This document shows positions 38,629 to 39,528 of a DNA stretch of 64,000 nt, piece after piece (the first letter of the stretch is position 1; each line of letters starts with the position of its first letter). Both the position numbers and the translations under genes were made by a program. The notes under the pieces were generated by a model. The model worked only from the letters and a program-made list of their open reading frames with translations. It searched no databases and was not told where the DNA came from. This stretch comes from Paracoccus albus (GTDB lineage Bacteria; Pseudomonadota; Alphaproteobacteria; Rhodobacterales; Rhodobacteraceae). Location: positions 3,078,501 to 3,142,500 of the forward strand of contig NZ_CP115775.1 of NCBI RefSeq assembly GCF_027913035.1, written 5' to 3'.

Positions 38629-39243
38629 ATGACCCGCTTCATTCCCGGCGCTATCGCCATGGCCATTATCGTGGTGGCCTCAAACATCCTCGTGCAATTC
38701 CATCTGGGCGCATGGCTCACCTGGGGCGCGATTACCTATCCCTTCGCCTTTCTGGTCACCGATGTGATGAACCGCGTCTATGGACCCGCCGCTGCCCGGC
38801 GCGTGGTTCTGGCGGGCTTCGCCATCGGTGTCGTCTGTTCGCTGGTCGCCGCAGGCATGGACAAAACGACGCTTCGAATCGCCATCGCATCGGGCGCGGC
38901 CTTTTTGATTGCACAGCTTCTGGACATTTCCGTGTTCAACGCCATGCGCACAAGCGGCGGCTGGTGGAAGGCGCCTCTGGTTTCGTCATTCTTCGGATCG
39001 GCTGTGGATACGGCACTTTTCTTTTCCATCGCCTTTGCTGCTCAGTTCAGCTTTATCGACCCCGCTGACAACGTCGGCTGGGCGAATGAGATGATCCCGC
39101 TGCTTGGTTTCGGCCCCGCTGCGCCGGTTTGGGCCTCGCTCGCGACAGCGGATTGGTTGATGAAAATGTTGCTTGCTTTGCTGGCTTTGGTGCCATTCCG
39201 CCTCATGGTCCGCAATATCTTGCGTCGGAACGCTGCATTTTGA
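38629..39243 (+). CDS. Queuosine precursor transporter, YhhQ/VUT family
   Basis: The 204-residue protein has about six membrane segments and the DUF165/YhhQ pattern: NILVQFHLGAWLTWGAITYPFAFLVTDVMNRVYG and later the QLLDISVFNAMR, SSFFGSAVDTALFFS motifs. E. coli YhhQ takes up queuosine precursors preQ0 and preQ1. The ribosome site is weak. No preQ1 riboswitch could be recognised in the 112-bp spacer upstream. The structured-RNA candidate begins about 50 bp after its stop. Confidence 0.88.
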   Translation: MTRFIPGAIAMAIIVVASNILVQFHLGAWLTWGAITYPFAFLVTDVMNRVYGPAAARRVVLAGFAIGVVCSLVAAGMDKTTLRIAIASGAAFLIAQLLDISVFNAMRTSGGWWKAPLVSSFFGSAVDTALFFSIAFAAQFSFIDPADNVGWANEMIPLLGFGPAAPVWASLATADWLMKMLLALLALVPFRLMVRNILRRNAAF

Positions 39244-39249
39244 GTTGAC

Positions 39250-39266
39250 TTATCCACAGGCTGTGG
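39250..39266. promoter_or_regulatory. DnaA-box sequence within a palindrome
   Basis: A perfect 9-mer TTATCCACA (the E. coli high-affinity DnaA box) is at 39250-39258, 7 bp after the yhhQ stop. It overlaps a 13-bp palindrome with arms CCACAG (39254-39259) and CTGTGG (39261-39266). A lone box may arise by chance, but it lies directly before the structured-RNA candidate. Confidence 0.4.
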
Positions 39267-39308
39267 CAGGCTTCCTTCAGTGGCAACATTTTGAAAGGAG
39301 GTGGTCCA

Positions 39309-39365
39309 GTGTCGAGAGTGATATTGGAGAGAGGTGTCGGGACAGTCAGGGGGGCCGCGGCCTGA
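39309..39365 (+). CDS. 18-residue micro-ORF within the structured RNA
   Basis: GTG at 39309-39311 opens an 18-codon ORF ending with TGA at 39363-39365; the peptide reads MSRVILERGVGTVRGAAA. The extended 16S-complementary sequence reaches directly into the start codon, so pairing over its full length would cover the start. The ORF is rich in Gly, Val and Arg and has no similarity that I recognise. It could be a real peptide, a leader peptide for an attenuator, or a coincidence inside a structured RNA. Confidence 0.4.
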   Translation: MSRVILERGVGTVRGAAA

Positions 39366-39444
39366 GGGCAGACCCCAGGTTTCAGAACTCTGACTGGGAC
39401 GGTCGGATCTTCGATCCCTAACCGGACCATCTTCGTAGATCTCG

Positions 39445-39483
39445 CGGGTCGTTGCCGAAAGGCACGGCCCGTTTCTATTTTTT
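39445..39483 (+). terminator. Strong intrinsic terminator of the structured RNA
   Basis: A stem of eleven pairs with one bulged T (CGGGTCGTTGCC with GGCACGGCCCG) closes a GAAA tetraloop at 39457-39460. It is followed by TTTCTATTTTTT (39472-39483). The stable tetraloop and the T-rich tail make this a convincing rho-independent terminator on the plus strand. It separates the RNA from the response regulator gene that starts 45 bp on. Confidence 0.85.
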
Positions 39484-39528
39484 GGCGGGCTTCACGGTAC
39501 GTTAGGAACTCTGCGCTATCCGGGCCAG

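Follow-up and report, generated by a model that had tools for sequence, protein, structure and literature searches.

A probable rreR-type small RNA gene in Paracoccus albus with a complement of the 16S rRNA tail and a candidate internal imitation of that tail

The locus, its signals and its neighbors

The window (the whole stretch of Paracoccus albus DNA that was analyzed, 64,000 nt in length) contained a short unit on the forward strand. It was preceded by a gene at 38629-39243 (+) that was identified as Vut_1 (PF02592) and presumably encodes a YhhQ-type queuosine precursor transporter, and it was followed, on the same strand and 45 nt past its T tail, by a response-regulator/SpoIIE phosphatase gene. 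The features of the unit were as follows.

39245..39272, +, probable promoter (TTGACT, 16 nt, CAGGCT), suggested by similar blocks that recur upstream of relatives
about 39280-39285, +, putative RNA start (GGCAAC), placed by the recurrence of AAC before the Shine-Dalgarno (SD) sequence
39293..39309, +, extended SD sequence, a 17-nt complement of the 16S 3' tail, GAAAGGAGGTGGTCCAG, from pairing, genome scans, and duplex energy
39305..39328, +, hairpin that holds the start codon, UCCAGUGUC-loop-GAUAUUGGA, paired in 97.9% of the cells of 57 sequences
39309..39365, +, rreR-type 18-codon ORF with a GTG start and a TGA stop (39363-39365), from the sequence and the kept stop position
39343..39396, +, helix of CAGUCAGGG (39343-39351) with its partner 39388-39396, 86.7% of cells paired
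39424..39434, +, candidate imitation of the 16S tail, GGACCAUCUUC, able to form 11 pairs (two of them G-U) with SD bases 39297-39307, from comparison and folding
39446..39483, +, intrinsic terminator GGGTCGTTGCC-GAAA-GGCACGGCCC with a T-rich tail, from sequence and fold

A strict consensus scan detected no promoter on the forward strand. The assignment draws on TTGAC-type -35 and CAxxCT-like -10 blocks that, by eye, recurred upstream of relatives, and on the AAC trinucleotide, which in 149 of 165 sequences was present among the 14 nt immediately preceding the SD, against an average of 29.2 for windows placed farther upstream. A simple terminator scan likewise gave none on the forward strand, although a hairpin and a T-rich tail are visible at 39446-39483, where the first-pass annotation had described an intrinsic terminator. 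We infer from these signals that the RNA is transcribed alone, from its own promoter to its terminator. The promoter spacer (39254-39266) had a feature of its own, as in many Rhodobacterales-type copies the stretch that separates the -35 from the -10 contains an inverted repeat resembling CACAAAATCTGTG (CCACAGGCTGTGG in the window), which is possibly an operator. A DnaA-box-like TTATCCACA in the spacer of the window recurred in L064 and was missing from most of the upstream stretches of relatives; therefore, it was taken as chance.

The neighbors were compared among groups that, here and below, were defined by ORF signature and not by taxonomy. A same-strand Vut_1 homolog was located upstream in 58 of the 67 Rhodobacterales-type loci, ending 43-204 nt before the SD, and a same-strand RF-1-domain gene followed the RNA in 30 of the 67 (such as L174, L108, L129, and L173), starting 42-1580 nt after the SD start and at no more than 350 nt in 25 loci. 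This gene carries GGQ (Pfam was run on one 60-residue piece) and is taken to be an ArfB-like ribosome rescue factor; its proximity to an RNA that would bind ribosomes may, perhaps, not be due to chance. The RF-1-domain gene was downstream in 0 of 23 loci of the genus set of the window, and within this genus the downstream gene was variable and located on either strand. Among named records, the neighboring gene had its best matches in Paracoccus loci. No neighbor was common to different orders. The lack of shared neighbors across orders suggests an independent gene, hardly a leader, with some local order within Rhodobacterales.

These neighborhoods bear directly on the possibility that the RNA attenuates transcription of, or serves as a leader for, the gene that follows it, namely the phosphatase gene in the window and the RF-1-domain gene in many relatives. 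Such a role would account for the combination of a short ORF, stems, a terminator, and a closely following same-strand gene, and a local effect is possible at the loci that do harbor the RF-1-domain gene. However, it is highly improbable for a gene whose neighbors change between orders, whose downstream gene varies in identity and strand within the genus, and which in the window is followed by a gene other than the usual one. The trpL-type attenuators, including peTrpL and rnTrpL of Sinorhizobium, resemble the present RNA, as they are small translated RNAs with a short ORF and a terminator. In contrast, rnTrpL is leaderless, whereas the RNA described here has a long SD and no neighbor common across orders.

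The complement of the 16S tail and its distribution

The sequence GAAAGGAGGTGGTCCAG at 39293-39309 (+) forms 17 pairs with the 16S tail of a congener, including 16 Watson-Crick pairs and one G-U. The 16S gene of P. albus itself was not found in its assembly, and the tail was taken from relatives: CGGCTGGATCACCTCCTTTCTAAGG came from one of 41 genomes of the genus, where it closes a full RF00177 match, and an identical tail was found in 11 genomes, of 46 others tested. The 17-pair duplex therefore holds on the 16S of relatives, with a calculated energy of -30.4 kcal/mol for the window copy. The first-pass annotation had described a 17-nt complement with one G-U that leads into the GTG of an 18-codon ORF, and had proposed comparison with the 16S 3' end of the genome; the description was confirmed on the 16S of the congener, and the tails of the congener and of other relatives were complementary.

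With up to two mismatches allowed, 39293-39309 was the sole site in its own genome, in which a reversed control pattern also gave one site. When 196 genomes of the order, all from the family of the window, were scanned for the site plus a start codon with at most one mismatch, 150 had a single match apiece and the control had none; the earlier description had been made to depend on such conservation in relatives. The 16S-tail complement is real and far beyond chance. In some genera, the first G of the site is replaced by T, A, or C while their 16S tail is constant, so the complement that is kept amounts to 16-17 nt. As to covariation between the 16S rRNA and the SD, the genera with T, A, or C at the start of the site have an unchanged tail and so offer no paired changes to compare (the tail being available from 11 of 46 genomes).

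A similar exact pattern was present in 18 of 63 alphaproteobacterial genomes versus 0 of 136 genomes of other Pseudomonadota (a split that was counted from the result rows), and the exact pattern was present in 28 of 289 genomes sampled evenly across the class. A scan of named genomes, which gives at least 120 stretches and is no census, contained among the matches listed three that are titled as Gemmatimonadetes/-ota or Nitrospinota, and the rest are titled as Alphaproteobacteria or plain Proteobacteria/Pseudomonadota. A scan of a plasmid collection gave no match. The three records L062, L082, and L140 (labeled Gemmatimonadetes, Gemmatimonadota, and Nitrospinota) bear the exact pattern, which may reflect chance, transfer, or mis-binned contigs. 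The record L178, labeled Pararhizobium, has a Rhodobacterales-type RNA with an ATG start, pointing to transfer or to a mislabeled genome. Some pattern matches, such as L035 and L040, resemble other genes. In L117, L153, and L168 (Azospirillum), as well as in L040, the same extended SD precedes ORFs of 57-59 codons with signal-peptide-like starts; therefore, ordinary small genes may use the site as well in those loci.

The short reading frame and the relation to known small mRNAs

Of the complete ORFs of the Rhodobacterales type, 64 of 66 have their stop at codon 19 (TGA in 38, TAG in 14, and TAA in 12), and a nucleotide signature without a length condition selected the same 67 sequences with the same stop counts. 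The start codons among 167 sequences were GTG (130), ATG (30), and TTG (7), the search pattern having admitted these three only. The 18-codon product of the Rhodobacterales type is VSRVILERGVGTVRGAVA-like, with LERGVGT recurring. Bradyrhizobium and its kin have KRCHLAGIAR-like ORFs that are mostly 14 codons long, and other groups have ORFs of the form VSHCH...TWILAS... or MSSE..., so that the peptides differ between groups. The conserved peptide motifs fall in paired RNA, with ATATTGGA located in the start hairpin, and CATTGTC and CTGGATC in paired segments of the VSH type.

Among 56 distinct 18-codon ORFs, dN/dS in frame 0 was 0.71 for codons 2-14, 0.90 for codons 2-18, and 1.08 for codons 4-12, and the shifted frames gave 0.80-1.18, which is hardly above frame 0. 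Thus, the comparison of frames in these ORFs gave no sign of purifying selection on the peptide. The start and the stop are kept, and the residues in between seem to be without visible selection at the protein level. A functional micropeptide gene with an over-strong ribosome site is quite improbable on these grounds. The three kinds of start codon (the only ones searched for), the kept stop position, and the recurrence of LERGVGT in the Rhodobacterales type are what such a gene would display; however, its dN/dS of about 0.7-1.1 is that of the other frames, the conserved motifs coincide with paired RNA, and the groups do not share a peptide.

This gene family has probably been described before, under the name rreR. 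Two small mRNAs are reportedly described in the work of Hahn et al. in 2017, rreB and rreR, of which the 18-codon Rhodobacterales type is presumably rreR and the KRCHLAGIAR type presumably rreB. They reportedly resemble the present gene in being discrete small mRNAs in which 16-17 nt complementary to the 16S tail stand immediately in front of a GTG, and their ORF has 14 codons in Bradyrhizobium and 18 codons in the Rhodobacter/Roseobacter lineage, both of which ORF types were found here. The rreR type calls for a complement of at least 16 nt directly before the start codon, and the window has 17 nt with one G-U; the 18-codon ORF of the Rhodobacter/Roseobacter lineage is found in 64 of 66 ORFs, with the type assigned by signature and including the Pararhizobium-labeled L178. 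The rreB RNA is said to co-sediment with the 30S subunit, translation is said to be weak and hampered by the long SD, and removal of the start codon reportedly stabilizes the transcript. Neither an internal imitation of the 16S tail nor a test of selection on the peptide is known to have been part of that work. A literature search on CC2171/RF01867, rreB, and rreR returned no report tied to an internal imitation or to missing peptide selection, the likeliest source (the text of Hahn et al., 2017) lying outside that search. What is added here is the absence of neighbors shared across orders, the absence of visible peptide selection despite a fixed stop, and a candidate SD-covering imitation of the 16S tail.

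The Rfam family CC2171 (RF01867) was also matched. The match covered model positions 1-159 with 24.9 bits, which lies below the gathering cut-off of 75. The likeness consists of the 5' block around GAAAGGAGGUGRUCCAGUGUC and the terminal terminator hairpin. The two differ in that 100 of the 159 model positions, lying in the interior, are skipped in the alignment, and in that the CC2171 consensus leaves most of the SD unpaired. When 61 genomes were searched, 37 had a match at E of 0.001 or lower, one of them above the cut-off, and the genome of the window gave no match under a stricter filter. CC2171 is a Caulobacter sRNA, and the family was also assigned to a predicted sRNA of Mesorhizobium (PMC5596092). 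Most likely, the gene is rreR, the form that a small mRNA of Alphaproteobacteria takes in Rhodobacterales, with a layout that appears related to Bradyrhizobium rreB and to CC2171.

RNA structure, the internal imitation, and possible roles

Two alignments were used for the structure. The alignment A1 contained 57 Rhodobacterales-type sequences, obtained from 67 through 61 non-redundant complete ones (without L014, L024, L026, and L028), and some of its rows end early because they were cut by the terminator rule. The alignment A2 contained 46 of 51 VSH-type sequences (without L079, L126, L148, L159, and L040). In A1, 93.0% of the cells of the whole structure were paired, compared with 39.8-50.6% in slid controls, and 56 cells were changed on both sides, compared with 11-27 in slid controls and a mean of 20.8 in shuffled ones. 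Counted by pairs, changes on both sides were hardly more numerous than in the controls, both in A1 (9 versus 6-8 in slid controls, and reached in 18 of 500 shuffles) and in A2 (11 versus 5-10, and 40 of 500). The compensatory changes that the first-pass annotation had named as a check are therefore seen in the count of cells but not clearly in the count of pairs. The start-codon hairpin had four invariant pairs of nine in A1, whereas the helix 39343-39351/39388-39396 had changes on both sides in seven of nine pairs. The fold of 39285-39478 had a z of -2.9 (one of 200 shuffles was as good), and that of 39280-39500 had a z of only -1.47. The z of -2.9 and the comparative support agree with the earlier suggestion that the RNA folds into stems.

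The segment at 39424-39434 appears to imitate the 16S tail and to cover the SD within the same RNA. In the 57 Rhodobacterales-type sequences, the columns matching 39429-39434 were paired with the SD core in 99.1% of cells (339/342); none of the other blocks among the 150 compared with the core did as well, the runner-up having 81.1%. Changes in the imitation were C/U opposite G and A/G opposite U, and opposite A there was one departure in 57; SD column 22 was paired in no more than 36 of the 57 sequences. Because the SD itself hardly varies, the evidence for this helix is one-sided. The predicted probability of the helix exceeded 0.5 in 54 of 57 sequences and was only 0.25 for the window copy after trimming. 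The pairing is present in both the lowest-energy and the centroid fold of 39285-39478, whereas with the longer flanks of 39280-39500 a different fold wins. The SD:imitation duplex of the window copy has a calculated energy of -19.9 kcal/mol. Directly before the imitation, CUAAC at 39418-39422 is nearly invariant in the 57 aligned RNAs.

The SD also has a partner in the VSH type, at another place. In 46 sequences, CUGGAUC inside the ORF pairs with the 3' half of the SD in 86.0% of cells, which is the best block, the next one having 59.3%; the GAGG:CCTC pairing with the 5' half in A2 was unremarkable (79.3%, sixth among the blocks). The VSH-type pairing crosses two other helices, one of which has changes on both sides in eight of eight pairs, and thus would be a pseudoknot or an alternative fold; its mean probability of 0.13 in a nested model is due to this crossing. 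A first duplex test against body shuffles, on 163 sequences that were not reduced for relatedness, gave 77 at p of 0.05 or lower and 42 at 0.01 or lower. A stricter test kept all types, including a mixed group of 33 that contains several seemingly unrelated loci. At p of 0.05 or lower, it gave 25/43 (VSH type), 22/46 (Rhodobacterales type), 7/33 (mixed group), and 2/13 (Bradyrhizobium type) against body shuffles, and 27/43, 37/46, 18/33, and 6/13, respectively, against shuffled SD letters. Folding and comparison thus make a strong case for an SD-covering imitation in the Rhodobacterales type, a fair one in the VSH type, and a weak one elsewhere.

It is considered reasonably probable that the RNA is a 30S-binding switch that acts via engagement of the ribosome and not via the peptide. 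In the free RNA, as comparison and folding suggest, the internal 16S-tail imitation would close the SD core, and the start codon would lie in its hairpin. The 16S tail of a free 30S subunit, with its 17 pairs, may then displace the internal segment by strand exchange; the difference between -30.4 kcal/mol for SD:16S tail and -19.9 kcal/mol for SD:imitation implies that the 30S could open the closed RNA. The 17th pair uses the G of the GTG, so that full pairing conflicts with decoding of the start codon, and the 30S would be held with slow initiation. Ribosomes that do initiate would translate about 18 codons and reach the fixed stop, and the sequence of the peptide seems immaterial. The RNA would in this manner read or occupy idle 30S subunits, and its structure and lifetime would shift with ribosome engagement. 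The first-pass annotation had offered either a translated leader/attenuator or a small RNA that captures 30S subunits; a 30S-engaging structured RNA is retained here, in view of the conserved complement, the stems, and the reported co-sedimentation of rreB, and the leader is disfavored, given the lack of neighbors shared across orders. A Caulobacter study refers to regions of its ncRNAs as untranslated (PMC4117421), which speaks against translation if CC2171 is included among them.

Two other roles are compatible with the switch. A sponge or dormancy RNA would use the 17-bp duplex to occupy the anti-SD of idle 30S subunits and move initiation away from SD-led mRNAs. Many genomes do retain the full complement, and in Caulobacter an SD marks the start of just 24.6% of coding sequences and there are 375 leaderless mRNAs (PMC4117421), so that anti-SD occupation could bias initiation and the shift would have targets. 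However, the RNA appears to hide its own SD and occurs in one copy per genome, and this role is rather unlikely. An antisense RNA acting in trans, in which 30S binding at the SD frees the imitation CCGGACCAUCUCC to cover the SD of other mRNAs, is also unlikely, if somewhat less so. Apart from the SD and the ORF start, the imitation and the preceding CUAAC belong to the better conserved stretches, and strand exchange is energetically favored, but the sequence and the place of the imitation vary between groups, which fits self-pairing equally well as, or better than, fixed targets.

Beyond the window, it can be proposed tentatively, and with more doubt than confidence, that ribosome-sensing RNAs of this kind are widespread in Alphaproteobacteria, each combining a full 16S-tail complement with an imitation of the tail, the two pairings being exchanged by the 30S, so that a signal on free 30S or anti-SD is passed on and the peptide is a by-product. 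If the switch reading is true, many Alphaproteobacteria possess a single RNA whose pairing with the 16S tail lets it sense or occupy idle 30S subunits, and a copy of this tail serves as a regulatory decoy. The reading would also account for an ORF that is kept in start, length, and stop without visible selection on the peptide, which is relevant to the annotation of small ORFs. Even if the gene is a known one, the SD-covering segment offers a direct mutational handle on its function.

A further pairing, P1, between codons 2-7 and the segment that precedes the terminator, was assessed by a swap test from which L035, L040, L058, L062, L082, L117, L140, L153, and L168 were excluded. For the window it is not proposed, as the test gave no support in the Rhodobacterales type (47 sequences, p 0.52), and none was obtained in the Bradyrhizobium type (13, p 0.42). 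The test was positive in the mixed group (26, p 0.0016) and in the VSH type (42, with 0 of 5000 permutations).
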